Shown one piece after another: positions 4,910 to 61,569 of a DNA stretch of 64,000 nt; position 1 is the first letter of the stretch; every line of letters begins with the position of its first letter. The DNA is from Caldicellulosiruptor saccharolyticus DSM 8903 (lineage in GTDB: Bacteria > Bacillota > Thermoanaerobacteria > Caldicellulosiruptorales > Caldicellulosiruptoraceae). Location: positions 2,185,394-2,249,393 of the forward strand of contig NC_009437.1 in NCBI RefSeq assembly GCF_000016545.1, given 5' to 3'. The notes under the pieces are model-generated. The model saw only the letters and a list, made by a program, of their open reading frames with translations. It did not search any database and was not told where the DNA came from. Made by a program: the position numbers and the translations under genes.

Positions 4910-6709
4910 TCAGACAATTCTTTTGAACATCTTTTCAATTTCTCTTTTTTGAATTTCAATAACAACAGGTCTTCCATGAGGGCAGTTGAATATCTTCTTC
5001 TCAACAAGAACAAGTTTTACTATCTCTTCTTTTTCCAAATCTGAGATATTCATATTACCTTTAACCGCTGCTCTGCATGCTATCTTTTTGAGCAATTCCT
5101 CTGAAAAGTGGGTTATACCTTTTTCTACTGATTCATTGTAAATCATCTCAATTATATCAAGTATGAAAAACTTATCAACTGCACCTTCAAATAAAAGTGG
5201 ATATGTTCTTACCACTATTTCATTTTTCCCAAAATCGTCTATTTCAAAACCAAGTTTTTCAAAAATATGAACATTTTCTAACGCAAACTCTTTTTGAGAA
5301 ATTGGAAGCTCAATAACAATTGGAGAGAGCAATATCTGTCTTTGGATTTTATTTCGAAAAATCTCTTCTTTCAAAAGTTCAAACAATCTTCTTTCATGGA
5401 CAGCATGCTGGTCTATAAGATAAAGGCTATCCTCTTTTTGTACAATGATATAGGTATCAAAAGCATATCCCACTATCTTATAAGTTTCAACATTAAATTC
5501 TTCTGAAAATACAGTTATGACATCTTTACTCTCTTTTCCCACTTCTACTTTTGAAAAATCAAGTTGTTCCTCAATTTTCAAAAACTCATTAAAATCCTCT
5601 TGAAACGCTTTCTCTTTGCTCTGTTGTTCTTGTGTATAAGACCAAAGGTTTCTTACCATTTTAACATCTTGTACACTTTGGGGTAAATAAAGATTATCTA
5701 AAGTAGGCTTTGGAATCATTTTTTCTGACTGAAGTGTACTTGAAACTGTTTTGTATACAGTGTTATAAACATATCTCTCATCTTTGAACTTTATCTCAAG
5801 TTTTGCAGGGTGAACATTTACGTCAATGTCAATAGGATTTATTTCTATAAACAAAAATACAATAGGAAATCTACCTGTCAAAATTGAATTTTTAAAAGCC
5901 TCGTCAATGCAAGTGGAAAGAAGCTTGCTTCTTATAAATCTTCTATTGACATAAAAGTGATAACCGCTTCGTGTTGATTTACTCAAAACTGGGTTTACAA
6001 AAAATCCCCATACCTTTAAACCTTCTTCCTGGTGCGAAAAGTCAATGAGGTTTTTTAAAATTTCTGATCCAAAAACTGAAGCAATAGCAGACTCTACTTT
6101 ACTATCCCCTGGTGTAAAAAGTTGCCTTTTATTGTCTACCTGCATTCTAAAAGAAATTTCTGGATAGCAGATTGCAATCTTTTCAACAACTTCAATGCAG
6201 TATTTTTGTTCAGCAGAAGGTGATTTTAAAAATTTTAGCCTAGCTGGTGTATTATAAAAAAGGTCTTCAATTGTAATTCTTGTTCCTTTTTCAAAAGGAT
6301 ATATGGTTTTTGAAAGAACTTTTCCACCTTCAACCTCTACTTTACAACCTTGTTCCTGTTCATAGTGCCTTGAGATAAGAGTAACTTTTGAAACGCTTGA
6401 AATTGCACAAAGTGCCTCTCCTCTAAAACCCATTGTTGTAATTTTGAAAATGTCATCAACCGATTTTATCTTACTTGTTGTGTGTCTCTCAAAAACGTAT
6501 TCAATGTCATCAGAATGAATGCCTTTGCCATTGTCATACACCTCAATTTTTTTTATACCGCCTTTTTCTAATTTAATATCAATCAAACTTGCCCCTGCAT
6601 CAATGGAATTTTCAATGACCTCTTTTAAACACGATGCAGGCCTTTCGACAACCTCCCCTGCTGCCAAAATATGGGTAATCTCCTCAGATAACCTATTTAA
6701 CTCTCTCAT
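4910..6709 (-). CDS. mutL: DNA mismatch repair protein MutL (endonuclease type)
   Basis: Links MutS mismatch recognition to strand incision. The 599 residues have a GHKL ATPase domain (ENSIDAG, DNGKGI, TMGFRGEAL in the first 100) and a C-terminal dimerisation domain. That domain carries the nicking motif DQHAVHERRLFE near 431, with CRAAVKG and CPHGRP near the end, so this is a latent-endonuclease MutL as in organisms without MutH. Its ATG overlaps the mutS stop (ATGA), indicating translational coupling. Confidence 0.97.
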   Translation of the reverse strand: MRELNRLSEEITHILAAGEVVERPASCLKEVIENSIDAGASLIDIKLEKGGIKKIEVYDNGKGIHSDDIEYVFERHTTSKIKSVDDIFKITTMGFRGEALCAISSVSKVTLISRHYEQEQGCKVEVEGGKVLSKTIYPFEKGTRITIEDLFYNTPARLKFLKSPSAEQKYCIEVVEKIAICYPEISFRMQVDNKRQLFTPGDSKVESAIASVFGSEILKNLIDFSHQEEGLKVWGFFVNPVLSKSTRSGYHFYVNRRFIRSKLLSTCIDEAFKNSILTGRFPIVFLFIEINPIDIDVNVHPAKLEIKFKDERYVYNTVYKTVSSTLQSEKMIPKPTLDNLYLPQSVQDVKMVRNLWSYTQEQQSKEKAFQEDFNEFLKIEEQLDFSKVEVGKESKDVITVFSEEFNVETYKIVGYAFDTYIIVQKEDSLYLIDQHAVHERRLFELLKEEIFRNKIQRQILLSPIVIELPISQKEFALENVHIFEKLGFEIDDFGKNEIVVRTYPLLFEGAVDKFFILDIIEMIYNESVEKGITHFSEELLKKIACRAAVKGNMNISDLEKEEIVKLVLVEKKIFNCPHGRPVVIEIQKREIEKMFKRIV

Positions 6710-9297: not shown

Positions 9298-9300
9298 AGT

Positions 9301-10716
9301 TCATATCACCTCACCATAAAGCCAATGCCTTGAGGCTTCCAGAATTTTTACATTTACAAACTTGTACATAAACTCATCAGAACACTTTACATTTACTACC
9401 TTATTAGTCCTTGTTCTCCCTTCAAGAAGATTATTCCTTTTAGAGTATCCATCTATGAGAATTTCACATACTTTTCCAAGCATTTGCTGATTCTTTTTTA
9501 AAGCTATTTCTTCAACTAATTTTACAAGTCTTTGAAATCTTTCATGTTTTACTTCATCAGGCACCTGGTTTGGCATTTGTGCTGCTTTTGTTCCTTTCCT
9601 CTTGGAATATATAAATGTATAGGCAGAGTCAAATTCAACCTTTCTCACTACATCCAAAGTATCTTCAAAATCCTCCTCTGTCTCCCCCGGAAAACCTACT
9701 ATTATATCAGTGGTTATTGCTATATCAGGAATATTCTCTTTTAGCTTTTCTACAAGCCTTAAATAATCTTCTTTTGTGTAATGCCTGTTCATCTGTCTTA
9801 AAATCCTTGTTGAGCCCGACTGTACTGGTAGATGTATATGCTCACACACCTTTTCTAAGTCCCTCATTGCAAAAATTAGCTCATCTGACAAATCCTTTGG
9901 GTGTGAGGTCACAAACCTTATTCTCTCAATACCTTCTATAGCATTTACCTTCTCAAGAAGTTTATAAAATGGAATTCCATCAGGTAAATCTTTACCATAA
10001 GAGTTCACATTCTGTCCCAGGAGTGTGACCTCTTTTACTCCATTTGCTGCAAGCTGCTGTATCTCAAATATAATCTCTTCAGGTCTTCTACTCCTTTCTC
10101 TTCCCCTGACGTATGGTACAATACAATATGAACAAAAATTGTTACAGCCATAAATTATGTTGACAAAGGCACTGACACCTTCTCTTCTCGCAGTAGGAAT
10201 ACCTTCAACAACTACATCTTCATCCTCTGCAACATCAATTACGGTCTTTTTTGTAGTAATTGCCTTATACAGAAGCTGCGGAAACTTGTGAAGGCTCTTT
10301 GTACCAAAGATTATATCTAAAAATGGGAATACTTTAGCAAGCTTTTGAGCAACCTCAAGCTGCTGAGGCATACATCCGCATACCCCTATTATCAACTCCG
10401 GTTTTTTGTCTTTCAATCTTTTTAGAGGACCAATATTACCATATACTCTTGACTCAGCGTGTTCTCTTACAGCGCATGTGTTAAATATAATCAAGTCTGC
10501 TTCTTCTAAATTTTGAGTCTCTACATACCCCATTGCATTTAGCATTCCTGCTAATTTTTCAGAATCATGGACATTCATTTGGCAACCATAGGTGATGATA
10601 TGATATGTTTTGTTTTTTCCATTTTTAAAATAATACTCTGAGTTCATCTTTTCAATTTCTTCAATGAACTGTGCTTGAGTACCAAAATCTATATAATAAA
10701 TTCCTCTATTTTCCAA
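9301..10716 (-). CDS. miaB: tRNA-2-methylthio-N6-dimethylallyladenosine synthase
   Basis: Radical-SAM methylthiotransferase that completes ms2i6A37 on the MiaA product. The 471 residues contain an N-terminal UPF0004 domain (ITYGCQMNVHDSEK), the radical-SAM cysteine motif CNNFCSYC near residue 190, and a C-terminal TRAM domain. The start appears to be TTG (10714-10716) with a GAGGGGG ribosome site. It is the first gene of the operon, so both steps of one tRNA modification bracket the mismatch-repair pair. Confidence 0.96.
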   Translation of the reverse strand: MENRGIYYIDFGTQAQFIEEIEKMNSEYYFKNGKNKTYHIITYGCQMNVHDSEKLAGMLNAMGYVETQNLEEADLIIFNTCAVREHAESRVYGNIGPLKRLKDKKPELIIGVCGCMPQQLEVAQKLAKVFPFLDIIFGTKSLHKFPQLLYKAITTKKTVIDVAEDEDVVVEGIPTARREGVSAFVNIIYGCNNFCSYCIVPYVRGRERSRRPEEIIFEIQQLAANGVKEVTLLGQNVNSYGKDLPDGIPFYKLLEKVNAIEGIERIRFVTSHPKDLSDELIFAMRDLEKVCEHIHLPVQSGSTRILRQMNRHYTKEDYLRLVEKLKENIPDIAITTDIIVGFPGETEEDFEDTLDVVRKVEFDSAYTFIYSKRKGTKAAQMPNQVPDEVKHERFQRLVKLVEEIALKKNQQMLGKVCEILIDGYSKRNNLLEGRTRTNKVVNVKCSDEFMYKFVNVKILEASRHWLYGEVI

Positions 10717-10755
10717 GTTTTATCCCCCTCAAAGTTTTTTTATTTAACAAGCTTT

Positions 10756-10784
10756 ATTATAGCATTTTGTTCATGGAATTATAA
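10756..10784 (-). promoter_or_regulatory. Probable promoter of the miaB-mutSL-miaA-hfq operon
   Basis: The minus strand has TATAAT at 10756-10761 in the right place ahead of miaB. The best -35 at 17 bp is only TTATAA (10779-10784), so the call rests on the -10. Confidence 0.35.
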
Positions 10785-10884
10785 TATCATATGGTCCCAT
10801 TTTTTTCTTAATATTTGAGCAAAATCAGAACAAAATTAATATTGAAATATCAAATAATCACCGAGAAAAAAGGAGGAAAAATTC

Positions 10885-11082
10885 ATGCCAAGGAAAAAAA
10901 GGCTTGTCCCAGAAGCTGCTCCTCAGCTAGATAAATTAAAACAAGAAACAGCCCAAGAGGTTGGCGTAACTCTTGACAATTACAATCCAAACATTACCAC
11001 AAAGCAAGCAGGAACAGTTGGGGGATATATGGTCAAGAAGATGATTCAGGATTATCAAAACAGGGCAAAGAACCAGCAGTAA
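10885..11082 (+). CDS. Alpha/beta-type small acid-soluble spore protein
   Basis: The 65-residue product matches the SASP family: a Lys/Arg-rich start, the ETAQEVGV segment (about 21-28) around the usual GPR protease site, and the C-terminal GTVGGYMVKKMI block. These proteins coat and protect spore DNA. It has an AAAGGAGGAAAA ribosome site and is monocistronic, divergent from miaB. No clear sigma-G promoter is visible. If the host is a Caldicellulosiruptor, described as non-sporulating, this is a retained sporulation-type gene. Confidence 0.88.
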   Translation: MPRKKRLVPEAAPQLDKLKQETAQEVGVTLDNYNPNITTKQAGTVGGYMVKKMIQDYQNRAKNQQ

Positions 11083-11089
11083 CAAAAAA

Positions 11090-11114
11090 CGGCAGAGGGA
11101 AATTCCCTTCTGCC
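11090..11114. terminator. Bidirectional terminator between SASP and ACT genes
   Basis: GGCAGAGGGA (11091-11100) pairs with TCCCTTCTGCC (11104-11114) with one bulge. The minus-strand transcript of the ACT gene runs next into TTTTTT; the plus side has a weaker T-rich tail. Confidence 0.7.
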
Positions 11115-11139
11115 TTTCACTTTATTCAGAACCTATTCT

Positions 11140-11571
11140 TTACAGAGAATAAACCTCATTTGCTGAGAGTATTCTAACATTATTTTCCTTTAGGACATTT
11201 ATTGCTTCCTCGCTATTTTCAACTTTCAAGATTACAAGAGCTTCATCAGTTATTTTCCCTACAAAAGCATACATGTATTCAATTCCTATATCGTTTTTAT
11301 ATAGAATATCAAGCACTTTTGCCAGACCACCTGGTTTGTCTTCCACAGCTATTGCAATCACATCTGTCGCAGAGACTGTAAATCCATTTTCTTTTAAGAC
11401 CTGCAGAGCTAAATCAGGCTTGTTGACAATCAGTCTCAAAATACCAAAGTCTGTGGTATCAGCAATTGAGAGAGCTGAGATGTCAATGTTGTTCTTTCCT
11501 AAAATGCTTGTTACCTCAGCAAGTCTTCCTGACTTGTTTTCTAAAAACACAGAAATTTGCTTTACATACAT
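11140..11571 (-). CDS. Tandem ACT-domain protein
   Basis: The 143 residues form two ACT domains (about 1-68 and 69-143), each with the usual beta-alpha-beta ligand-sensing layout ([31 protein letters not shown]). No catalytic domain is attached. Free-standing ACT pairs of this type often sit beside paaK and ior genes, and this one lies just below paaK. A role as an amino-acid sensor for the aryl-oxoacid module is likely but inferred. The ATG follows AGGAGGG. Confidence 0.8.
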
Positions 11572-11632
11572 TCTTAAAAACCCTCCTGAATATTTTCAAA
11601 CTCATCTACTAATTATATTAATACCCATTTAT

Positions 11633-12934
11633 TTATATCCTTCTCCTGTCAATTACTCTTTTTGCCTTTCCTTCACTTCGCTCAATTGTCTTTGGTTCAA
11701 CAAGCCTTACTTTAACAGAGATTCCAAGTGTATCTTCAATTGCTTTCGTTATTTTCTTTTCAAGCTGTTCAAGTTTTCTGACCTCATCTGAGAACATTCT
11801 TTCAGAAACCTCTACCAAAACTTCTAAAACATCAAGGTTATTGACCCTGTCCACAATCAACTGATAATGAGGTTCAACCTCGCCCATCTCAAGTAAAACA
11901 CTTTCTATCTGAGACGGGAAAACATTCACACCTCTTATTATTATCATGTCATCAGTTCTGCCAATAACCTTTTCCATTCTAACAAGAGTCCTGCCACATT
12001 TGCACCTGTCATAGTGAAGAGCTGTTATATCTCTTGTCCTGTATCTTATAAGGGGAAGTCCCTCTTTCGTTATTGTAGTAAATACAAGCTCACCATACTC
12101 TCCCTCACCTAAGACCTCCCCTGTTTCAGGATTTATTATTTCAGGTAAAAAATGATCTTCATTTATGTGCATACCACATTGGTATTCACACTCAAAAGCA
12201 ACACCTGGGCCAATTATCTCAGAAAGCCCATAGATATCATATGCCTTGATATTGAGTTTTGACTCTATCTCTTTTCTCATATTCTCAGACCATGGCTCTG
12301 CTCCAAATACACCTGACTTGAGCTTCAATTGAGACTTGTCAATTCCCATTTCCTCCATTGTTTCAGCAAGATAAAGTGCGTAGGATGGTGTACAAGCCAA
12401 AACTGTTGTTCCAAAGTCAACCATTAGCTGAATCTGTCTTTTTGTATTGCCAGATGAAATCGGTATGACAGATGCACCAATTCTCTCTGCACCATAATGT
12501 ACTCCAAGACCACCTGTGAAAAGTCCATAACCATATGCAATCTGGACAAATGAATGCTTATCTGCCCTTGCTGCAACAAGTGTTCTTGCCATAACCTCAG
12601 ACCAAATACCAATGTCATGTTTGGTATATCCTACAACTGTTGGCTTTCCAGTTGTACCAGATGATGCATGAATTCTCACAATTTCGCTTAATGGTACAGC
12701 AAAAAGACCGTATGGATAGTTGTCTCTCAGATCTTGTTTTGTTGTAAATGGAAGTTTTTGTATGTCACTTAAGTCTTTTATATCCTCAGGAATGAGTCCT
12801 AACTCCTGCATCTTTTTTCTGTAATACGGAACACTTGTATAAACTCTTTTTACTGTCTCAACCAAGCGTTTTAACTGAATTTCCTGCAATGTACCTCTGT
12901 CCATACACTCCATATGTTCATCCCAATATCTCAT
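11633..12934 (-). CDS. paaK: Phenylacetate-CoA ligase-type AMP-forming ligase (copy 1)
   Basis: Activates an aryl acetate with ATP and CoA through an acyl-adenylate. The 433 residues contain the P-loop-like [15 protein letters not shown] near 90-105, [10 protein letters not shown] near 235, and the C-terminal [20 protein letters not shown] frame opens at a GTG at 12952, but the ATG at 12932-12934 (MRYWDEH) aligns with the second copy, avoids overlapping iorB and has GAGGTG upstream. It is about 60% identical by eye to the copy at 15.3-16.6 kb. Confidence 0.93.
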
Positions 12935-12941
12935 CTTGAAT

Positions 12942-13532
12942 CTACACCTCACCTAAATCTACATTTCTACCCATCGCAAATGCCTTAAGATTTATCTCAA
13001 CAAACTCTGGCTTTACATTATTTTCTATAGCCTTTTTAAAAAAGTTTTCTTCAATTCCTGTGAGCCTGCTAAACACACCTAACATTATAGTGTTTTGAAC
13101 ACGTGGATTCCCTATTTTAGTGAGTAAAGGTGGAATATTAATCTTATAGAACTTTACTCCAAGCTCTGTTATAATCTTATCCACATCAGGATACTTATAC
13201 AACCCAGTAATAATACTCATCGGAGGAATTTCATAGTCAGAATAGATTAAAATTCCTTCTTTTTTTAAATACTCAATCCAACGCAGAGCTTCTAACTTTT
13301 CAAATGCAATTATATAATCAGCCTCTGCTTTGTCTATAAGTGGTGAAAATACCTTCTTGCCTGCCTTTACATATGTTACAACACTGCCTCCTCTCTGCGC
13401 CATTCCATGGACTTCTGATATTTTTACATCATATCCTACATTCAAAAATACCTCACCTAAAATCTTACTCAGCAAAATATTTCCCTGTCCACCAACTCCG
13501 ACTATTAATATGTTGAGATTTTCTTTCATCAC
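12942..13532 (-). CDS. iorB: Indolepyruvate:ferredoxin oxidoreductase, beta subunit
   Basis: Gamma-domain-type subunit of the two-subunit aryl-2-oxoacid:ferredoxin oxidoreductase, which makes or uses aryl-acetyl-CoA with reduced ferredoxin. The 196 residues begin [12 protein letters not shown] and continue [13 protein letters not shown], the standard family signatures. The start is GTG (13530-13532) or the next ATG; the AAAGGAG ribosome site overlaps the iorA stop, giving tight coupling with iorA. Confidence 0.95.
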
Positions 13533-13536
13533 ACCA

Positions 13537-15270
13537 CTACTCCTTTACGCTATTGATCGCTCCAAATCTGCAGATACTTTCGCACATCCCACATCCAAGG
13601 CACAAGTTTTGGTCAATCGTGGGTACCTCTTTTAGTGATATAGCAGGACAGCCCAAACTCAAACACAGCTTACAGCTTTTACATTTACTTTTGTCAATGT
13701 ATCTTTTCAATGACACATATTTATACCTTCTATGAAGTCTGCAAGGTGCTTTGACAATTAAAAACTTAACACCAGGCATATCAATTAGTGCATTTATTTT
13801 TTTGAGGTTCTCATTGATATTGTACGGGTTTATCTCTTCGACAATTGAACATCCTAAAGTTTTGCAAAGACTTAGAAGGTCAAGCTTAAACGTCTCCTCT
13901 CCCCTAATTGTATATCCAGTTGCAGGATGGTCTTGATGCCCTGTCATTCCAGTTGTGGAGTTATCCAAAATTAAAACAAGAATATCAGACTTATTATAAA
14001 CAGCATCAATAATCCCTGTTATTCCAGAATGAACAAAGGTAGAGTCACCTATAACTGCAACAGCTTTTGCACTGTTATTTGATGCCTTTGAAATACCATG
14101 AGCCATTCCAACACTTGCACCCATACAAATACATGTATCCATAGCATTAAAAGGAGAAAGAGCCCCCAATGTATAACAACCAATATCACCTGTTATGATA
14201 ATGTTTTTTATTTTGCTTAAAACGTAAAAAATACCTCTGTGAGGACAGCCAGGACACAAAATAGGAAGTCTTGGAGGAAGCTCTTCTTTCAATTTATAAG
14301 GAGGCTCAAACTGCGTTCTTTCAATTGCCGATTTTATGTACGAAGGCGAATATTCACCTGTAATTTTAAAGATCTCTTTGCCAACAACATTCCTTATTCC
14401 CATTGCTTTTATATTTTCTTCTAAAAATGGATCAAGCTCTTCAACAATATAGACTTTTTCAAACTTACTGCAAAAATCTTTAATTAATCTCTCTGGTAGT
14501 GGATAAACCATTCCCAATTTTAAAACCCAAGCGTTAGGATATGCTTCTTTTATATACTGGTAAGCTATACCTGCTGTAATAAAGGCTAAATTACTTTCAC
14601 CTTTCTCAATTTTATTAAGCTCTGTTTTTTCGGCAAACTCCTTTAAATCATTTAACCTCTTTTCTACAATCTCATGCCTTTTTCGTGCCATTGCTGGCAT
14701 CATTACATACTTTTGAATATCCTTTTTATATTCATAACCTATTTCAACTCGGCTACCTTCTTCCACTACTGATTGAGAATGCGAAACTCTTGTTGTAAGA
14801 CGTAAAATTACAGGTGTATCGTACTTTTCACTAATCTCAAAACCTTTTTTCACAAAATCAACACATTCTTGGCTGTCGGCTGGTTCTAAAACCGGCACTT
14901 TTGCTGCCTTTGCAATGTTTCTTGTGTCCTGCTCATTTTGTGAAGAGTGCATGCCAGGGTCATCAGCAACAGCTATTAAAAGTCCGCCATTTACCCCTGT
15001 GTAAGATACAGTAAAAAGCGGGTCTGCTGCAACATTCAAACCTACATGTTTCATCGAGCAGATGGCTCTTTTGCCAAAGATAGACGCTCCTATTGCAACC
15101 TCTAAAGCCACCTTTTCATTTGGTGCCCATTCACAGTAAATTTCATTGTACTTGGATATGTACTCTGTAATTTCTGTTGAAGGTGTACCAGGGTAAGCAG
15201 TTGCAACCTTCACACCTGTCTCATAACATCCTCTGGCAACTGCTTGATTTCCAAGCATAAGTCGTCTCAA
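13537..15270 (-). CDS. iorA: Indolepyruvate:ferredoxin oxidoreductase, alpha subunit
   Basis: Large catalytic subunit. The 577 residues comprise a pyrimidine-binding N-terminal part (AYPGTPSTEITEYI), a TPP-binding domain near 350-480 (CPGCPHRG, GDIGCYTLG, GDSTFVHSG), and two C-terminal [4Fe-4S] motifs, CKSCKLCLSLGCP and CLGCGMCESIC. It oxidatively decarboxylates aryl pyruvates to aryl-acetyl-CoA, or runs in reverse to build aromatic amino acids. It sits between the two paaK copies with iorB. Confidence 0.95.
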   Translation of the reverse strand: MRRLMLGNQAVARGCYETGVKVATAYPGTPSTEITEYISKYNEIYCEWAPNEKVALEVAIGASIFGKRAICSMKHVGLNVAADPLFTVSYTGVNGGLLIAVADDPGMHSSQNEQDTRNIAKAAKVPVLEPADSQECVDFVKKGFEISEKYDTPVILRLTTRVSHSQSVVEEGSRVEIGYEYKKDIQKYVMMPAMARKRHEIVEKRLNDLKEFAEKTELNKIEKGESNLAFITAGIAYQYIKEAYPNAWVLKLGMVYPLPERLIKDFCSKFEKVYIVEELDPFLEENIKAMGIRNVVGKEIFKITGEYSPSYIKSAIERTQFEPPYKLKEELPPRLPILCPGCPHRGIFYVLSKIKNIIITGDIGCYTLGALSPFNAMDTCICMGASVGMAHGISKASNNSAKAVAVIGDSTFVHSGITGIIDAVYNKSDILVLILDNSTTGMTGHQDHPATGYTIRGEETFKLDLLSLCKTLGCSIVEEINPYNINENLKKINALIDMPGVKFLIVKAPCRLHRRYKYVSLKRYIDKSKCKSCKLCLSLGCPAISLKEVPTIDQNLCLGCGMCESICRFGAINSVKE

Positions 15271-52398: not shown

Positions 52399-52545
52399 TG
52401 TAATGCAATCATTCCTTTCAAAATATTTAAAGCAAATCAGAAAAATTATTTTTGCACTATTTATTTTAAAGTATTTTTAGCCATAAAATCAAGAAAGGGT
52501 TATAATAATAATTGTACACTATTTTAAAAAGCAGGTGAATGCGAA

Positions 52546-54180
52546 ATGATAATTGGGCTTGATGTAGGCGGAACAAACATTGATATTGTCGCAATTGAAA
52601 ACAATAAAGTTGTAGATCACAGAAAATTTGAACATGGTGAAGACCTCCTTTTTTCTATATTGACAAGCTTAGAAGAATTTATAACAAAAGATTATATCTC
52701 CAATCTTAGTCGTATTGTGCTTAGCACTACAATTACCACAAATGCAATCGTCCAGAACAAGCTTGACAAGGTTGGAATGATAATTGAAAATGGCATCGGA
52801 GCAAATCCAGATTTTCTTATGTGTGCAGATGTTAATATTTTACTTGACGGGTATATAAACAACAGAGGGATTGAAGTTAAGAGTTTCGATAGAGAGAAAG
52901 TAGAAAAAGCAATTTTGATCTTCAAAAAAGCTGATATTAACAACATAGGAATTGCGTGCAAATTCTCTGTTAGAAATCCAAAGCACGAGCTCGATGTTTA
53001 TGACATTGTAAAAAGGCATGGTTTTGAGTTTGTTTCTTTAGGGCATAGGATTTCTGGTAAATTGAACTTCCCACGCAGAGTATTTTCTACATATTTAAAT
53101 TCAGCTGTCTATAGTAATTTTAAAGCATTGTGCAATGCCATTTTAGAATTTTTAAAGAAAAAAAATATACCTTCACACTTGGTATTTATACAAAAACCAG
53201 ATGGAGGAATTGTCCATTTGGAAAATTTAAAGGAATTCCCCATTTTTTCAATCTTATCAGGTCCTGCGGCTTCAGCACAAGGCGGTTACATACTCTCAAA
53301 ACCTCTCTCAGATGCAGTTATAATCGACATTGGTGGAACAACTACTGATATTTCATTTGTCTGCAATGGCCAGTTTGTTTTAGAACAGTATGGGGCAAGA
53401 ATAGCAAATTACCCAACCTTAGTCCGTGCTATTTATTCAAGGTCTGTAGGAATAGGTGGTGATAGCATAGTAAAAGTTGAAGATTCCATCTCAGTTGGTC
53501 CTGAAACAGTAAAATCTTGTAATATCAATAGAAAAAATATTGTTACCTTTACTGACGTGTTACAGTATCTAAATTCTTCTTCGGATGATGAAGCACAAAG
53601 TCGACTTAAAAATTTGTCAAATAAAGCAAATATGCCACTTGAGCTCTTTTGCAATAAAGTAGTAAAGGTAGCTTTAAATACAATTTGTAAAAAAATAGAA
53701 GAAGGGATTGATTACATCAATAGCACCCCCATTTATACAATTCAAAAACTTTTACATGGTGAGAAATTCATCCCCAAAAAAATAGTAGTAATTGGTGGAG
53801 CAGCTGATTTGATAAGTAAACATTTAGAAAAAGAGTTAAAAATTAAAGTAGAAGTTCCTAGATATTATATGGTGGCAAACGCAATAGGGTGTGCGCTTGG
53901 CTCAGTCTCAAGAGAATATAATTTGGTTGCAGATACAGAACAAGGAAAAGTTTATATACCTGAGCTTGACAAGTATGAAAGTGTTAATATAGATTTTTCT
54001 CTTGCTCAAGCAAAGGATTTTTTGATAAACAAGATTATAGAAGCAGGTGATGCTCTTTCAGCGGATGATATAGAAATTGTCGAGGAGAATTCGTTTAATA
54101 TGATTAGAAATTTTAGATATTGTGGAAAGATAATCAAGATAAAGGCACAGCTAAAACCTAAACTTCAAGAATTAAAATAA
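52546..54180 (+). CDS. Hydantoinase/oxoprolinase-family ASKHA protein, function unknown
   Basis: The 544 residues have the fold of the HyuA/OplA ATPase family: phosphate-1 motif GLDVGGTNIDIV at 4-15, STTITTNAIVQNK near 63, phosphate-2 IDIGGTTTDISF near 262 and the adenosine loop VVIGGAADLI near 412. Family members phosphorylate a substrate for ring opening of hydantoin or 5-oxoproline. No HyuB partner is present; the next gene, 15 bp on, is an HDAC-like deacetylase, which is unusual. An AGGTGA ribosome site precedes the ATG and a TATAAT lies at 52501-52506 with a poor -35. Substrate unknown. Confidence 0.85.
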   Translation: MIIGLDVGGTNIDIVAIENNKVVDHRKFEHGEDLLFSILTSLEEFITKDYISNLSRIVLSTTITTNAIVQNKLDKVGMIIENGIGANPDFLMCADVNILLDGYINNRGIEVKSFDREKVEKAILIFKKADINNIGIACKFSVRNPKHELDVYDIVKRHGFEFVSLGHRISGKLNFPRRVFSTYLNSAVYSNFKALCNAILEFLKKKNIPSHLVFIQKPDGGIVHLENLKEFPIFSILSGPAASAQGGYILSKPLSDAVIIDIGGTTTDISFVCNGQFVLEQYGARIANYPTLVRAIYSRSVGIGGDSIVKVEDSISVGPETVKSCNINRKNIVTFTDVLQYLNSSSDDEAQSRLKNLSNKANMPLELFCNKVVKVALNTICKKIEEGIDYINSTPIYTIQKLLHGEKFIPKKIVVIGGAADLISKHLEKELKIKVEVPRYYMVANAIGCALGSVSREYNLVADTEQGKVYIPELDKYESVNIDFSLAQAKDFLINKIIEAGDALSADDIEIVEENSFNMIRNFRYCGKIIKIKAQLKPKLQELK

Positions 54181-54195
54181 ATGGAGGTCTTCAAA

Positions 54196-55518
54196 ATGCA
54201 AAGAGCACAGAACAAGCTTGGGCTTATCCTCTTTCCTGCATTTGACTGGAGAATTACCCCTACACATCCTGAAAGAGAAGAGAGACTTCTTTACACCATT
54301 GACCAAATTGAAGAAGAAGGTTTTTTTGACTATGAGAATGTATTTGTATTTAATCCTGAAATAATTGACGAGAAGTATATAAATCTTACACACTTTTGTG
54401 TCCCTAACTTTGATTCAATTGCAACCATTTCACATAAAATTGCCGCAAGTAGCACTATTACCATAGCTAAGAAGGTTATGTCAAAAGAAGTCGAAAAAGG
54501 TTTTGCTTTGATTCGCCCCCCTGGACACCACGCTCACAGAATAACATATGGTGATAGAGGTTTTTGTATAATAAATAATGAAGCAATAATGGTTGAATAC
54601 TTAAAGAGAGAATATAGAATAAAAAAGATAGCAATCATTGACACAGATTGTCATCATGGAGACGGAACACAGGATATATTCTGGAATGACAAAGATGTTC
54701 TTTTCATCTCCTTGCATCAAGATGGAAGAACACTTTACCCAGGAAGCGGATTTACAAATGAAATAGGAGGGCCAGCTGCACTTGGATATACACTCAACTT
54801 ACCTCTGCCACCATATACTTCTGATGAAGGATTTTTATATTGCTTAGAAAATTTGATCCTCCCTATCTTAGAAGAATTCAAACCTGACATTATCATAAAT
54901 TCAGCTGGACAGGATAATCATTATTCAGACCCCTTGACAAATATGAACTTTTCAGCGCAAGGATATGCTAAACTCACCGAAAGATTAAACCCTCATATTT
55001 CAGTGTTAGAAGGTGGGTACTCTGTTGAAAGTGCTCTTCCATATGTCAATCTTGGTATAATATTTGCCCTTGCTGGTATTGATTATTCTAATATAAAAGA
55101 GCCTGACTATGACTTTGAAAAGTTAAGACAATCTCCAAAAATAAGTGAATATATTAAAAGATTGTGCGAAAACGTGTACACTATATGGAAAAACAAAGAA
55201 CAGACTGCACATGAGTTCAAGAAAAAATACCAGAAATATTATACACGAAAAAAATCAATATACTACGATACCATGGGATTTTTAGAGCAGCAGCTTGAGA
55301 ACATTAAAATTTGTAACAAATGCTCAGGGTTAATAACTATTGAGTCGCGTTGTTTGAATTATAGGGTTTTTGCAATCACAATACCACATGATGCATGTGA
55401 TGAGTGCTGTGATGAAGGTTATAAACTTTTTGCAACTTCTGATCCTGTCAACTTTTCCCATATAATCTTGCAGGATAAAAAGAATTTTGAATTTTACAAA
55501 AAAGAAAACTTAAAATAG
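54196..55518 (+). CDS. Class-I HDAC/AcuC-like deacetylase with Cys-rich C-terminal extension
   Basis: The 440 residues have an arginase-fold deacetylase domain (about 1-300): the His dyad 111-112 in PPGHHAH, zinc ligands Asp151 and His153 in DTDCHHGDG and Asp240 in SAGQDNH, and the transition-state Tyr275 in EGGY. A tail (about 320-440) holds Cys373, 376, 386, 401, 404 and 405, arranged like a zinc ribbon. The ATG at 54196 has GGAGGT upstream; an earlier ATG at 54181 is part of that site. The catalytic residues are complete, so amide hydrolysis of an acetylated or similar small substrate is likely; the substrate is unknown. It forms an operon with the hydantoinase-family gene. Confidence 0.87.
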   Translation: MQRAQNKLGLILFPAFDWRITPTHPEREERLLYTIDQIEEEGFFDYENVFVFNPEIIDEKYINLTHFCVPNFDSIATISHKIAASSTITIAKKVMSKEVEKGFALIRPPGHHAHRITYGDRGFCIINNEAIMVEYLKREYRIKKIAIIDTDCHHGDGTQDIFWNDKDVLFISLHQDGRTLYPGSGFTNEIGGPAALGYTLNLPLPPYTSDEGFLYCLENLILPILEEFKPDIIINSAGQDNHYSDPLTNMNFSAQGYAKLTERLNPHISVLEGGYSVESALPYVNLGIIFALAGIDYSNIKEPDYDFEKLRQSPKISEYIKRLCENVYTIWKNKEQTAHEFKKKYQKYYTRKKSIYYDTMGFLEQQLENIKICNKCSGLITIESRCLNYRVFAITIPHDACDECCDEGYKLFATSDPVNFSHIILQDKKNFEFYKKENLK

Positions 55519-55532
55519 CACTAGGTTGTTTG

Positions 55533-56411
55533 TCACTTTCTTTTTTTCAAATTTTCTCCATTGATTAACACTAAATCTCCATGTTTGAAATTAAGTTTCT
55601 TTGCCAAGTATTCACATTTAATTTTAAGAAGGTAAAATATATTGTCTTGAATTTCCTCAAATTCATCTAAGGATTCAAAATTTGCCTGACCTTTTGAAAT
55701 TACAATATCCACATTTAAGATTAACTGTTTAAGCTGAGATGATACAAATTCCTTAGGAATACCTAACAAGCCTAAACCTGTCTCCACAATGGTTGCAATT
55801 TTATCCATGCCAACTTCTTTTGCATCTTCTAATGTTGCATCATTTAGTATAGGTTTTGTCTTTACTATGTAATATACATTCTTGCCCATTTGATTTAATA
55901 CTTCCACTAAAACTTTGTCAAACACAATCTCCCCTGCGTTATCTCCTGCAATCACAATGTTTTTACTGTTTTGAAGCTTCTTTTTTAAGAGAGGATAGTC
56001 ATCTATCGAAAATCCGAAATCAAAAGCGTGCGAAAGCTCACTTTCGATGTCAAACTCTCTTTTTATGCCTAAATCAATTACATTGCCCGCTACAGCAGCC
56101 TTTAGAGACTCATAAAGTGGATCTTTTGATTCAAAAACCTTTTTTCTTACACTTTCGAAAAGTTCAAGTGCCAAAGCATTTGATTGCTTTTTCGCAGAGT
56201 AATAGGGATCGTTATTTTGTATTATTTCATACGTTTTAAGCAAAACAAGTGAAGAATTATAAGCTGGTGAATCCTGTGGATTTAAAGTTTTTATAAAGTC
56301 CATTAGCTCATACAAAACTTCTTTCTTTCTCTCGTCAGGTATATTAGCCATTTCCATGCATGAAACAGCTTGTTTTAAATAACAGTGAATACAATCTATA
56401 AGAGCATTCAT
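55533..56411 (-). CDS. DUF89 / ARMT1-like metal-dependent phosphatase-family protein
   Basis: The 292 residues match the short prokaryotic DUF89 type. CIHCYLKQAVSCMEMA at 8-23 gives the N-terminal Cys pair (CxxC), GDNAGEIVFDKVLVE near 157-171 is the signature with the metal-binding Asp-Asn, and SKGQANFESL near 240-249 is the second site. Relatives of this fold act as damage-control phosphatases on sugar phosphates or cofactors. It converges on the HDAC-like gene 14 bp away, so it is a neighbour but not co-transcribed. AAAGGAG precedes the ATG. Confidence 0.85.
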   Translation of the reverse strand: MNALIDCIHCYLKQAVSCMEMANIPDERKKEVLYELMDFIKTLNPQDSPAYNSSLVLLKTYEIIQNNDPYYSAKKQSNALALELFESVRKKVFESKDPLYESLKAAVAGNVIDLGIKREFDIESELSHAFDFGFSIDDYPLLKKKLQNSKNIVIAGDNAGEIVFDKVLVEVLNQMGKNVYYIVKTKPILNDATLEDAKEVGMDKIATIVETGLGLLGIPKEFVSSQLKQLILNVDIVISKGQANFESLDEFEEIQDNIFYLLKIKCEYLAKKLNFKHGDLVLINGENLKKRK

Positions 56412-56526: not shown

Positions 56527-56601
56527 GCTCCATTAGCTCAGTGGTAGAGCAGTCGATTCGTAATCGACTGGTCGGGGGTTCGAATCCCCCATGGAGCTCC
56601 A
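56527..56601 (+). tRNA. tRNA-Thr (anticodon CGT)
   Basis: The 75-nt sequence folds as a full cloverleaf: 7-bp acceptor stem (GCTCCAT with ATGGAGC), D-arm AGCTCAGTGGTAGAGC, anticodon stem GTCGA/TCGAC with loop TTCGTAA (anticodon at 56559-56561), T-arm GGGGGTTCGAATCCCCC, discriminator T and encoded CCA. It reads ACG codons. A tyrosine-recombinase remnant begins about 110 bp downstream, so its 3' end is the likely attachment site. Confidence 0.96.
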
Positions 56602-56692
56602 AGAAAATTAAGGGGTTTGAGGATAGGTAAAATATATCAAGTGCATTTTCTACAGATATCTTACAGCTACCCGAGAAACTGTAAAATTTTAA

Positions 56693-56725
56693 GGTAACTA
56701 CTCCACTATCTTAGGAGTGGTTACC
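56693..56725 (-). terminator. Hairpin at the end of the integrase remnant
   Basis: GGTAACTACTCC (56693-56704) pairs with GGAGTGGTTACC (56714-56725) in 11 of 12 positions with a 9-nt loop. The minus-strand transcript continues TTAAAATTTT. Confidence 0.6.
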
Positions 56726-57907
56726 CTTTGTTTTTATATCTTCAAATAAGCTGTTTAATTTCATTGCAGCAGCTTTCTTTATTTCAGGCATAACATGAGA
56801 ATAAATATTGAGGGTTTGTAGAAATATCTTTGTGTCCTAAAAGCTCTTGAACAACTTTTGGATGTTCGTTCGCTTCTAAAAGCCTTGTTGCATATGTATG
56901 TCTTGGTATATGAAAATTTACTCTTTTGTAAATAGCTGCTTTTTCTCTTATTCTGTAAAAAAGCCTTTCAAAACTCCTTGGGTCAATTGGTGTGCCAAAC
57001 TCTGTTGTAAATACTAATCATTATCTTCATAAAGCATTCCAGCTTTTAATTTTTCTTCTAACTGTTTTTTCCTGTGCTGCTTTAACTCTTCAATTATTAC
57101 TGGTGGTAAAGGCACTATTCTTTTACCAGCCTCTGTTTTGGGCTCTTGAAAAGCAAGTGCAGTCTTTTTAGAGCTACTACCATCAAAAATCTTTACACGC
57201 TGCAATGACCTTCTAACTTCAATGTATCCATCCTTAAAATTTACATCTTTCCAGCGCAAAGCCAAAAGTTCACCTATTCTAAGTCTACTTGCTAACTCAA
57301 CAAAAAATGCAGTTTTTAGTTTTTCCCCTCCAAAGCTGCAATAAATCTTTTTTGTTCTTCTAAACTCAGTATTCTTATTTCCCTTTTTGGCTTGCCTTTT
57401 GGCAAAGTGGTTGCTTCTGAAACATTTCTGTTGACAAGTCCATTTTTCAAAGCTTGGTCTAAAGCTGAATGCAAAACAACATGAATCTGCTTAATCGTAC
57501 TTATACTCAAACCTTCCTGATATTTGGCATTATACAAAGCTTGAAGATGCTCAGGTCTCAAATCTTTTAGCTTATAATGACCAATGGCTGGATTTATATG
57601 TTTTTCTATATAGCACAAATAATCTTTGAACGTTGAAGGTCGCAATGTCTGTTTTTTATATTCCCAAAGCCATGTGCTGAGCCAATCTTTGACAAGCATT
57701 CTTGCAGGGTCAACATATACTCCATTGGCTAAGTCGTTTAATGCCTTTGCTATCTTTTCAGTAACCTCTTGTCTTGCCATAGAAATATTGCCGCTTTTGT
57801 CTGCCGTTTTCATCTCTTCCTATGGTAATTTGATCACACCAAAGCCCGTCTTTCCTTCTGTATATGCTGCCTTCATTGTTTCCTTTCTTTTTAGTCTTTG
57901 CAGGCAT
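56711..57907 (-). pseudogene. Tyrosine-recombinase integrase, frameshifted
   Basis: Reading across frames gives a complete phage/ICE integrase of about 395 residues: an N-terminal Arm-type domain (NNEGSIYRRKDGLWC from the ATG at 57905-57907), a SAM-like core-binding domain, and a catalytic domain with RIGELLALRW, HIPRHTYATRLLE, LLGHKDIST and the nucleophile Tyr in NIYSHV. Four lesions break it: near 57778 (probable loss of one AAGAC repeat), near 57319 (one G lost from a G run), near 57016 (one T lost) and near 56816 (one A gained). The longest intact pieces are 57316-57813 and 57014-57265. It lies next to tRNA-Thr, the probable target, and should be inactive. Confidence 0.9.
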
Positions 57908-57908
57908 A

Positions 57909-58490
57909 TTATAACACCTCTTTTATTTGGGCAAAGTCTATTATAAGGTCTTCAAAAATACCAACCTTGACCTTGTCACTGAAGGTGTAAGCTTCTGGTG
58001 GCAAGTAATCTTCGTTGTCTATGAGTCTGTACACTAAGATTGTTTGATTTTTAGGATTGACAATCCAGTATTCTTTAACCTTAAACTGTGTATAAAGATT
58101 GAGCTTTCGGATATAGTCATGCGAAAAATTGCTCTCAGATACAACCTCAATTATCATTTCAGGAACTCCAACACAGCCTTTATCAGTAAGTTTTCTCTTG
58201 TCGCAAATAATTGAAATATCAGGCTGCACAACGTTGATTGCTTGTTTTTCGTCCTGTCCTTCCTCTATTAGGACTACATCAAATGGCGCTGTGTAGATTT
58301 CGCATGCTTTTTTATTTTGCCGGAGATAGCTACCAATTGTTATTGTTAACTCTGAAACTATCTTTTGATGCACTCTTGAGGGTGCAGGGCTCATATCATA
58401 GATGACACCTTCAATCAACTCCACCCTTGCGTCTTCTGGCAGCTGAAGATAGTCTGCATAGGTGTATATTTTAGGTATTCTGGCTTCCAT
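57909..58490 (-). CDS. Uma2-family (PD-(D/E)XK nuclease fold) protein
   Basis: The 193 residues are typical Uma2/DUF820: TYADYLQLPEDARVELIEGVIYDMSPAPSRVHQKIV at the start, VQPDISIICD near 95, PEMIIEVVSESNFSHDYIRKLNLY near 113 with the acidic nuclease-like residues. The family is common in cyanobacteria and thermophilic Firmicutes and has no settled function. The ATG at 58488-58490 has an AAGGTG site; the frame is open further up. It overlaps the remnant of the XRE regulator gene by 20 nt, so before the IS insertion the two were probably co-transcribed. Confidence 0.85.
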   Translation of the reverse strand: MEARIPKIYTYADYLQLPEDARVELIEGVIYDMSPAPSRVHQKIVSELTITIGSYLRQNKKACEIYTAPFDVVLIEEGQDEKQAINVVQPDISIICDKRKLTDKGCVGVPEMIIEVVSESNFSHDYIRKLNLYTQFKVKEYWIVNPKNQTILVYRLIDNEDYLPPEAYTFSDKVKVGIFEDLIIDFAQIKEVL

Positions 58491-58694
58491 CAGATTCACC
58501 TTCCTTGGAATAATCAATACCTTTCTCTTTTTTCTTATATTCTTTAACCTTTTCTACAAGATTCCCTTCTGTCTTAAACAATGCTAAATAAAGAGCTTCT
58601 GAATAACTTGTTGACATATCCTCTAAAAAATCAAAAAGCACAGAAAAATTATCCCTAATATTTTCGTAAATTTCACCCATTTCATTTAATACTC
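58471..58694 (-). pseudogene. 3' remnant of the XRE regulator gene, cut off by an IS
   Basis: Starting at the IS junction, this frame reads VLNEMGEIYENIRDNFSV and ends after SDGSQNT, about 70 residues of charged helical sequence. Taken alone it looks like a 69-residue hypothetical protein from an ATG at 58678-58680 with no good ribosome site. Joining it through the 11-bp repeat to the regulator at 59808-60443 restores one continuous frame of about 281 codons. Confidence 0.75.
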
Positions 58695-58697
58695 AAG

Positions 58698-58709
58698 TTG
58701 TTGAATAAA
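58698..58709. repeat. IS left terminal inverted repeat
   Basis: TTGTTGAATAAA, exact reverse complement of 59795-59806. Confidence 0.8.
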
Positions 58710-58739
58710 TAATTATACCATTAATGTTACTATATAGAA

Positions 58740-59687
58740 CTATAAATTATTCCACGTGTATTTAAAAGAAAATTTACAGTTTTCAATTTTTTGAATATAG
58801 ACCTCTATCAAATAAGTAATCATAATCCAGTCTACATGCTTCTTATATGTTCTAAAACCTCTTAACCTTACTTGTTCTAAATTGTATTCTCCTTTTAACT
58901 TACCAAATAATCTTTCTATTTTTGTCCTCTGCTTATATAACTTTTGTCCTTCTTCGCTTCTTAAAAATTCCATATTTTTTATCCTCAAAATATTTTTTAC
59001 ATTACTGAAATCCTTACTATTTCTCTTATTTACCGCCGCTACAAACTTCATCCCAAGTCTATCTGACACCTCAAACCATTTCGCACAATCATAACCTGCA
59101 TCTGCCAATATCACTTCAGGTCCAAATATCTTAGCTTCATACAAAAGTTCTACTACTTTACTGTCATGGATATTTGCACATGTCAACCACCATACTATAG
59201 GTATAACCTCGCTTTCAACTGTTGCTAACACATGTAATTTATACCCATTGTAAAAACCTAAACTAACACATACTCCTACTTCTGCCTCTTTGTCACCCCT
59301 CGAGCTTCTCAAAGGTGTAGAATCTATAGCACAAACTTTTGTCTGCGGATCTATTTCTCTCACTAAAATTCTTGCTATCCCTTCTATATATTCTTCTTCA
59401 ATTACTTTTGCCCATTTCGAAAAATATGTATGATCGGGGCTCTTTTCTATCCCTATAGCCTTTTTAAATTCTTCATCTTCATTTATCTTGTATTCTAATT
59501 CCCTGAAACTGTTTATCTTGTTTTTGACTTTGTAAACAAAACAAGCTATTATATGGCTTAGCTTAAATTTCTTCGGTCTTCCTCTCCTGCTACTTTTTAT
59601 CTTTAATCCCAAGGCTTTTATTACTTTCTCAATTGTCATAAGTATCTTTAAAAATTTTTGTTTTTGTGTTTTAATAAAATTAGTCAT
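58740..59687 (-). CDS. DDE transposase of the IS element
   Basis: The 315 residues have an N-terminal helical region with RRGRPKKFKLSHIIACFVYK (about 33-52), then the RNase-H-like core: first Asp in VCAIDSTPLRSS near 120, second Asp in VILADAGYDCAKW near 195 and the Glu in KQRTKIERLFGKLKGEYNL near 265 with the usual YREK-like context. All three catalytic acids are present, so it may be active. The ATG at 59685-59687 lies 6-7 nt after AAGGAGG; an ATG 6 nt upstream is too near that site. The ribosome site is part of a 13-bp inverted repeat. Confidence 0.9.
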   Translation of the reverse strand: MTNFIKTQKQKFLKILMTIEKVIKALGLKIKSSRRGRPKKFKLSHIIACFVYKVKNKINSFRELEYKINEDEEFKKAIGIEKSPDHTYFSKWAKVIEEEYIEGIARILVREIDPQTKVCAIDSTPLRSSRGDKEAEVGVCVSLGFYNGYKLHVLATVESEVIPIVWWLTCANIHDSKVVELLYEAKIFGPEVILADAGYDCAKWFEVSDRLGMKFVAAVNKRNSKDFSNVKNILRIKNMEFLRSEEGQKLYKQRTKIERLFGKLKGEYNLEQVRLRGFRTYKKHVDWIMITYLIEVYIQKIENCKFSFKYTWNNL

Positions 59688-59688
59688 T

Positions 59689-59753
59689 GCCATCCTCCTT
59701 AGTTACGTGTTTTTAGTCTTCTCTTGCTATAATTTTACCTTAAGGAGGATGGC
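59689..59753 (-). promoter_or_regulatory. Inverted repeat able to hide the transposase ribosome site
   Basis: In the minus transcript 59753-59741 (GCCATCCTCCTTA) is the exact complement of 59701-59689, which contains the AAGGAGG ribosome site and ends next to the start codon. Transcripts entering from outside the IS would carry both arms and fold; one starting in the 39-nt spacer would not. Similar protection from read-through is known in IS10 and IS200. Confidence 0.65.
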
Positions 59754-59794
59754 TTTTTATATATATCTATTTATTGTCTTTTCTGTTAATCTGT

Positions 59795-59806
59795 TTTATT
59801 CAACAA
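59795..59806. repeat. IS right terminal inverted repeat
   Basis: TTTATTCAACAA, exact reverse complement of the left repeat at 58698-58709. Confidence 0.8.
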
Positions 59807-59807
59807 G

Positions 59808-60443
59808 CTAATTTAATACTCTCTCAAAATAATCATACTTGCTCTTTATTTTTTCATCTTCTTTCTTAAATTCCTCATAAGTTATTTGACCATCAATAAA
59901 ATCTGCGAACAATTTCTCAACTTTATCATTTGGATACAAATCATCTAACGCAATGAATCTATTCTCTCTATCTTCTAAAAATGCCCTAAACTTTTCAAAG
60001 AATAAGTTTATATGGCTTAACAAATGATAAATTAAATCAGTAATAAATTCTCTATTTCTTTCTGGTTCATGAGCAAAGAAGTAAACTATGGCAGTATTAA
60101 CTAACAAAGGTTCTAATACCTGTTCAATAAATGTTGCAACTTTTTTTTCAATTTTTTCATCCGAAATTACATAAGGTAGATTTTCAACTACAAATCTCTC
60201 AAACTTTGTTCTCTTGGAAAATTGTTCTTCTACTGTCCTATACTCACTCCTACCAATAAGATAATCAACTGTGACACCAAAATAGTCTGCAATTTTAAGT
60301 AATGTGTCAAAATTAGGTTCTCTATGTCCATTCTCATAATTCGCTATGGTTTGTGTTGAAACACCTAAAATTTCTGCCAAATCACTTCTTGAAATATTCT
60401 TTTCTTCTCTAAGCTCTTTAAGTCTAAATCTAAATAAATTCAC
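59808..60443 (-). CDS. XRE-family HTH regulator, truncated by the IS
   Basis: The 211 residues start with a Cro/C1-type HTH (about 5-62: LKELREEKNISRSDLAEILGVS, IANYENGHREP, YFGVTVDYLIGRSE). A helical domain follows (about 75-211), probably for dimerisation. The stop TAG is supplied by the end of the IS, which removes about 70 C-terminal residues. The HTH is intact, so DNA binding may survive. A promoter and three related operator-like sites lie just upstream, as in phage repressor regions. It faces the element's excisionase and replication genes. Confidence 0.87.
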   Translation of the reverse strand: MNLFRFRLKELREEKNISRSDLAEILGVSTQTIANYENGHREPNFDTLLKIADYFGVTVDYLIGRSEYRTVEEQFSKRTKFERFVVENLPYVISDEKIEKKVATFIEQVLEPLLVNTAIVYFFAHEPERNREFITDLIYHLLSHINLFFEKFRAFLEDRENRFIALDDLYPNDKVEKLFADFIDGQITYEEFKKEDEKIKSKYDYFERVLN

Positions 60444-60462
60444 TCAACCACCACCAAAAACT

Positions 60463-60523
60463 ATTCGTTTAGTTTTTATTATAGAACAAACTTAGAGAAT
60501 TAACAATATCAAACTAAATGAAT
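60463..60523 (-). promoter_or_regulatory. XRE regulator promoter with three operator-like sites
   Basis: On the minus strand TTGTTA (60501-60506), 17 bp, TATAAT (60478-60483). Three 13-bp sites related to ATTCATTTAGTTT occur: 60511-60523 just upstream of the -35, 60488-60500 inside the spacer (10 of 13 matching), and 60463-60475 inverted, just after the -10 (12 of 13). The arrangement suggests autoregulation. Confidence 0.6.
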
Positions 60524-60549
60524 TTCACAATAAAAATTTAAACTATCTA

Positions 60550-60577
60550 TTTACAAATACATTTGGTTTGATATAAT
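60550..60577 (+). promoter_or_regulatory. Rightward promoter of the element
   Basis: TTTACA (60550-60555), 16 bp, TATAAT (60572-60577), divergent from the XRE promoter and about 70 bp ahead of the excisionase remnant. Confidence 0.5.
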
Positions 60578-60644
60578 AAAATTATAAAACAGATTGAATA
60601 GTTTTGAATAGTTTTCTTTAAAACATTAAGAAGAGGTGTTCTCA

Positions 60645-60862
60645 ATGGAAATTTATATCCACAAAAACAAAAAGAAAAAATAGAAAAATTGACAATATCT
60701 ATCAAGGGAGCTGTCCAAATGCTGGGTATTAGCTATAACGTCATGCTTACCTTGATGCATAGAAAAGACTTCTCCAAAATCTTAGCTGGGCAGCGAAGAA
60801 TCTTAATCCCTAAGGAAGTTTTCATTAAATGGGTCAATGAACAGGCTTGCCGGAATAAATAA
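60645..60862 (+). pseudogene. Excisionase-like HTH protein, frameshifted
   Basis: The ATG at 60645 has an AGAGGTG site but its frame stops after 12 codons. One base later in phase the frame reads NLYPQKQKEKIEKLTISIKGAVQMLGISYNV and on to IPKEVFIKWVNEQACRNK at 60862, a MerR-like/helix-turn-helix excisionase type of about 72 residues. One A missing near 60650 explains the break. A TTG at 60689 could start a 57-residue product but lacks a ribosome site. Confidence 0.65.
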
Positions 60863-60874
60863 CAGATACCTACC

Positions 60875-60976
60875 ATGTTCAAGCTATCCCCTTTCTTCTC
60901 TTTGTTCGCTGCCTTGTTCGGGAATCGGCAAGGTGGCTTGGCTGGTGTTTTTGAAAAAGAAGGAGGAAAGTATTGA
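60875..60976 (+). CDS. Short open frame, uncertain
   Basis: Thirty-three codons (MFKLSPFFSLFAALFGNRQ start, EKEGGKY end) with a hydrophobic first half. Its TGA overlaps the ATG of the next gene, and that gene's AAGGAGG site lies within it. It has no ribosome site of its own. It may be a leader peptide or chance. Confidence 0.2.
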   Translation: MFKLSPFFSLFAALFGNRQGGLAGVFEKEGGKY

Positions 60977-61569
60977 TGGGGAAAATAGTAAATCAAGAGG
61001 CAGTAGAAGTAGTCATTGGTGCTATGTTGTTTAGCAAAGAAGCAATATCAGAGGTTACAGGAATTTTAACAAAAGAAGATTTTGCAACTCCACAGCTAAG
61101 AGAAGTTTTTGCTGCCGTATTAGAACTTTTTGAAGAAGACAAGCCGGTAGATATCATAACTGTAGCTGAAAGACTGAGAGAAAGAGGAACATTTGAAGAA
61201 GTTGGTGGAAATGAGTATCTGACAAACCTAGCGATAAATACTCCGACGACAGCAAATGTTATGTATTATGCAAAGATAGTTAAAGAAAAATCATTGTTAA
61301 GACAGATAGCTTCAAAGAACAAAGAGTTAACAGCAGTAATAGAAATGGGAGATTTAGAAGCAGCTAAGCTTATTGCGGAAGAAATTACAGTTTTAACCGA
61401 AAAGAAAATTGGATATAACACTATAAAAGCTTTAATCATTTCAGAAGCTGCAGAAAAAGACAAACAACAAGGCGCACATCTTTGGTTGGTTGAAAATTTT
61501 ATACCCCAAAAAGGACTTGTAATTTTTTCGGGAAGACCAAAACATGGTAAAACCACTGTGCTTTTATAA
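60976..61569 (+). pseudogene. DnaB-N / RepA-like replication protein, 5' fragment
   Basis: The ATG at 60976 has an AAGGAGGAAA site. Residues 1-110 resemble the N-terminal domain of DnaB helicase (NQEAVEVVIGAMLFSKEAI, PQLREVFAAVLELFEEDKPVDIITVAERLRERG, INTPTTANVMYYAKIVKE). A linker follows, then the start of a RecA-like ATPase with the Walker A FSGRPKHGKTT near 186. The frame ends right after the P-loop at 61569. The next fragment continues in another frame after an apparent loss of two bases near 61565. In intact elements this is one protein acting in element replication. Confidence 0.8.

Follow-up and report, generated by a model that had tools for sequence, protein, structure and literature searches.

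The closest described counterparts of the locus studied here combine an ASKHA protein of the CapA/HyuA fold with a metal-dependent amide hydrolase encoded by a partner gene, as in CapAB, HyuAB and 5-oxoprolinase, which are found in catabolic contexts. For CapAB it has been proposed that the ASKHA subunit activates the lactam with ATP, and that the activated lactam is hydrolysed at the metal site of CapB (Asp-His-Asp-His), located about 40 Å away (PMC8453981). The same ASKHA subunit architecture is present in the acetone and acetophenone carboxylases, which have in addition carboxylase metal subunits and a ketone-pathway context. A second set of described proteins is relevant here, the HDAC-fold enzymes HDAC6 (class IIb) and the bacterial HdaH and Kdac1 (cluster 1, PMC11532494), which share the fold, the tandem histidines, the zinc ligands, the catalytic tyrosine and the LEGGY motif.

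In Caldicellulosiruptor saccharolyticus a gene for a HyuA/CapA-type protein (HYU) is followed by one for an HDAC-type protein (HDAC), and a DUF89 gene lies next to them. The window, that is the whole stretch of 64,000 nucleotides that was analysed, contains the following features at this locus:

52533 to 52538, plus strand: AGGTGA, likely ribosome-binding site of HYU (read from the sequence)
52546 to 54180, plus strand: HYU, HyuA/CapA-type ASKHA protein of 544 amino acids (Pfam, NCBIfam, PDB profile, motif counts, AlphaFold2, Foldseek)
54183 to 54188, plus strand: GGAGGT, HDAC ribosome-binding site (start at 54196), right after the HYU stop (read from the sequence)
54196 to 55518, plus strand: HDAC, class-II/HdaH-like zinc amidohydrolase of 440 amino acids (Pfam, PDB matches, invariant residues, AlphaFold2)
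55312 to 55407, plus strand: Cys4 (CxxC...CxxC, amino acids 378-409), putative zinc ribbon in the HDAC tail (conserved cysteines)
55533 to 56411, minus strand: DUF89/ARMT1-like protein of 292 amino acids (Pfam ARMT1-like (DUF89), 4.1e-69; PDB 2g8l)

The open reading frame coordinates and Pfam agree with the first-pass annotation on the three genes and on the gaps of 15 and 14 bp between them. The 15 bp separating HYU and HDAC are counted to the ATG at 54196; the HDAC reading frame is open from 54181, and the ATG at 54196 is the better start since GGAGGT is located ahead of it and since it agrees with the start in the relatives. HDAC residue numbers are nevertheless counted from 54181. Rfam gave a tRNA as its sole match: a tRNA-Thr(CGT) is located downstream of the three genes and is followed by an apparent decayed integrative element (together 56527-61569), of which an integrase N-terminal fragment (57316-57810), a second, unassigned fragment, a Uma2-family gene, a DDE transposase, an HTH regulator and a DnaB N-terminal domain fragment are left.

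HYU contains the Pfam domains Hydant_A_N (1.3e-27) and Hydantoinase_A (2.1e-33), and its AlphaFold2 model (pLDDT 92) matches N-methylhydantoinase, acetone/acetophenone carboxylase and CapA in Foldseek. The model thus shows the predicted fold of the HyuA/CapA subunit with ASKHA architecture, and the phosphate motifs are in place (DVGGT at amino acids 6-10, DIGGTTTD at 261-268). Among 84 full-length members, the phosphate-1 motif was counted in all and the phosphate-2 motif in 81. The CapA residues D11, T15, K32, D295, T299 and D302 are kept in HYU as D6, T10, K27, D261, T265 and D268; the equivalent of Lys32, K27, is invariant, and so is K217-x-DGG, a KxDGG motif where HyuA has QSxGG. HYU is however a short form that lacks the C-terminal approximately 140 amino acids of CapA, and the adenosine motif GxxPGP was found in none of the 84 full-length members; in the profile alignment with 7hk5, 6yra and 5l9w this region is a gap. 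ATP use by HYU may therefore be lost or altered. As the first-pass annotation had claimed for the locus, the usual HyuB partner is missing: HyuB (PF02538) was not detected anywhere in the host genome (2.97 Mb, single contig) or in the genus. The locus is also devoid of the metal subunits and the ketone-pathway context of the carboxylases. In one relative (L057, genome G036, 10486-11927 and beyond) HYU is split into three fragments by frame changes beside an intact HDAC; either faulty sequencing or decay of the gene may be the cause.

The HDAC protein matches the Pfam family Hist_deacetyl (1.1e-69) and was given no NCBIfam name. Its active site is complete, as had been annotated: the tandem histidines H116 and H117, the zinc ligands D156, H158 and D245 and the catalytic Y280 are invariant in all 154 members compared. 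HDAC is very probably a working zinc amide hydrolase. The assignment to class I does not hold, since the LEGGY motif is present and the closest matches in sequence and fold are HDAC6, HdaH, Kdac1 and HDAC4/7, with the class IIb enzyme HDAC6 as the best PDB relative by sequence; HDAC is thus class-II-like. The residues of the aromatic crevice (F128 invariant, Tyr or Phe at position 186) show a predicted acyl-lysine type. The gatekeeper residue 252 is Leu in 96 and Ile in 58 of the 154 members, which argues against polyamine specificity; the Glu gatekeeper of the polyamine deacetylases (HDAC10/APAH-like), corresponding to the PEG motif (PMC11532494), was seen in none of them. Several traits set HDAC apart from HdaH, Kdac1 and HDAC6: zinc ligand D245 is flanked by Q244, N246 and H247, all invariant, where the described enzymes have the GFDA type, the N-terminus is its own (FPAFDW..HPEREERLLYT), and it has a Cys4 tail and an obligate HYU partner. 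No Pfam family matched this C-terminal tail, which is conserved in 152-153 of the 154 members and is folded at high confidence in the AlphaFold2 model (pLDDT 88 for the whole protein).

The link between the two genes turned out to be far stronger than originally claimed, extending across many families and beyond a single phylum. In 61 related genomes, HYU adjoins every full-length match to HDAC. A collection-wide search with HDAC alone yielded 80 loci in Bacillota and Thermodesulfobacteriota and a few in other phyla, some of which are probably mis-binned. Among 99 loci fetched with tblastn, 96 have HYU beside HDAC on the same strand (94 upstream, 2 downstream), and in the two loci with reversed gene order HYU and HDAC still overlap by 4 bp; of the other three, two are cut by a contig end and one is devoid of HYU. 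In an even sample of 300 genomes from the phylum, the HDAC subfamily is present in 121 (about 40%), HYU in 119 and both in 118, always adjacent and co-directional (Fisher p 3e-79, kinship ignored). Contig ends account for the discordant genomes G187, G329 and G180, and G306 has a partial HDAC beside a HYU match. HYU and HDAC almost certainly form an obligate functional pair, and their reliance on each other is the central finding. The single apparent lone HDAC in the 99 loci (L128, about 8001-9311) adjoins epmA, and HYU was not found there although the upstream sequence is sufficient. Apparent HYU-HDAC fusions in L146, L127 and L136 are ORF-caller artefacts on GC-rich DNA.

The tight co-directional pairing and the complete active sites would also fit two enzymes that work on separate substrates within a single repair or recycling route and do not form a complex, HYU opening a ring and HDAC removing an acyl or formyl group, and other HyuA-type proteins are indeed present in related genomes as separate genes. 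Yet practically no genome has one of the two genes alone, which is unusual for independent enzymes, and a substrate gene is not present in the neighbourhood. We regard this arrangement as rather doubtful.

The neighbouring DUF89 gene had been annotated as part of a three-gene salvage pathway, in which the hydantoinase-like protein, HDAC and the damage-control phosphatase would act on one small molecule. It does belong to the DUF89/ARMT1-like family according to Pfam, and in each of the 12 genomes of the genus it stays beside HYU-HDAC, in the same order and convergent to HDAC. Outside the genus however, it is absent, on another contig or distant in every examined genome with the pair, and it was not next to the pair in any of 60 further loci; this is the pattern that the first-pass annotation itself had named as speaking against its idea. 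Being convergent, the gene is moreover not part of the HYU-HDAC operon. DUF89 was therefore discarded as a third member, and a pathway of this composition is highly improbable. What is conserved is a housekeeping module of two genes.

The genes surrounding the pair in other genomes do not indicate salvage of a small molecule either, since catabolic or transport genes are almost never found beside it and its partners are mutS/mutL, miaA/miaB, hfq, epmA, rlmN, murB and ogt. A position between mutS and mutL is seen for the pair at 30 loci from 18 families, with the order miaB–mutS–HYU–HDAC–mutL–(methyltransferase)–miaA–hfq. The genes are closely packed at these loci, with a median of -22 bp (an overlap) between HYU and HDAC and of 7 bp from HDAC to mutL, the start codons being approximate. 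The methyltransferase between mutL and miaA is a conserved SAM-dependent enzyme (PF04445), seen for instance in L064 at 12887-13663 and in its relatives. In the HDAC tree the mutS–mutL arrangement is deep and paraphyletic with five changes; the linkage is probably ancient and was presumably lost in the branch containing the window and Thermodesulfobacteriota. The window itself carries mutS and mutL at 4910-9297, in the same 64 kb, without the pair. Derived contexts contain epmA, murB, rlmN, ogt or a carboxymuconolactone-decarboxylase-family gene. In approximately 22 Desulfobacterales loci (such as L109, L112 and L092), epmA, the gene for the EF-P beta-lysine ligase, is located directly downstream of HYU-HDAC.

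These contexts suggest another reading, in which HDAC, as a protein lysine deacylase, controls a housekeeping protein such as MutS/MutL or EF-P and has HYU as a nucleotide-dependent partner or regulator. In human cells, HDAC6 deacetylates MLH1, and HDAC6 and HDAC10 deacetylate MSH2 (PMC13305816). The short or overlapping gaps at the mutS–mutL loci, the two further loci in which ogt adjoins the pair and the epmA loci point in this direction, and so do the relationship to HDAC6, the lysine-type crevice and the non-polyamine gatekeeper. A negative association with sirtuins was also observed (odds ratio 0.56, p 0.018, kinship ignored); it is weak, and mutual exclusion of HDAC and sirtuins was discarded as an idea. 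The acyl-lysine literature on syntrophs mentions sirtuins alone. Against a deacylase acting on mismatch repair proteins stand two genomes of one genus (G304 and G256, 99% complete; loci L264 and L265), in which MutL is absent and the sole MutS match is a MutS2-like paralogue that also occurs in relatives. Both retain the pair, with the locus reading miaB–HYU–HDAC–miaA. The pair is thus independent of mismatch repair, which contradicts a role as an accessory that needs MutS or MutL and argues against a parallel to HDAC6/HDAC10 and MLH1/MSH2. A regulatory link may exist where both are present. In addition, the mutS–mutL linkage is old and mostly inherited. The epmA linkage is confined to Desulfobacterales: in Syntrophales epmA stays beside efp, and in the Bacillota relatives no epmA match above the family cut-off was found, so that epmA is not a universal partner. 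EF-P as a target was likewise considered through its lysine, but this residue is present everywhere and is therefore uninformative. Since the contexts are largely inherited, they do not indicate one substrate. The deacylase reading furthermore leaves HYU without an assigned chemistry, and altogether we consider it unlikely.

As the best explanation we tentatively favour that HYU and HDAC are one enzyme, or two successive steps, in which the activation of an amide or a ring is coupled to its hydrolysis. An amide, lactam or cyclic ureide would be phosphorylated by HYU at the expense of a nucleotide, and the metal centre of HDAC would hydrolyse the activated bond in place of HyuB/CapB. As a metal-dependent amide hydrolase, HDAC could by its anatomy fill the role that CapB has in CapAB. 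The substrate would be no nutrient but something ubiquitous, either a molecule that has been damaged or modified or such a group on protein or RNA. The adjacency in 118/300 genomes, the HYU motifs, the complete HDAC site, the missing HyuB and the housekeeping partners, where CapAB, HyuAB and 5-oxoprolinase have catabolic ones, are in favour of this coupling. The absence of GxxPGP from 84/84 HYU proteins speaks against it; HDACs moreover hydrolyse amides without ATP, the HDAC fold is unrelated to that of HyuB, and a genuine fusion of the two genes was not found. The more specific proposal of an ATP-coupled hydrolysis with HDAC in the HyuB role, drawn by analogy to CapAB, is somewhat less probable still, although possible. 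For the module of two genes, putative ring opening combined with amide hydrolysis is nonetheless a sensible proposal. A further step would be a new kind of two-component amide hydrolase, a nucleotide-driven opener of rings or amides whose metal half is no longer HyuB but a zinc enzyme of the HDAC fold. It would serve repair or editing of nucleic acids or of the translation apparatus, in bacteria that are probably for the most part anaerobic; this we offer as speculation with a rather low chance of being correct in full.

We found no published description of a HYU-HDAC pair and no literature joining HDAC with a hydantoinase or with EpmA, and the main text of a survey of bacterial HDACs (PMC11532494) does not mention an HDAC linked to HYU. 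Libraries of defence and phage genes gave no informative match. The pair probably does one undescribed housekeeping job. A strictly paired HDAC would provide a defined system to learn what bacterial HDACs do, and it would show whether an ASKHA ATPase can drive an HDAC. Its place inside the mutS–mutL operon poses the question whether this job belongs to mismatch repair, to tRNA modification or to neither of them.
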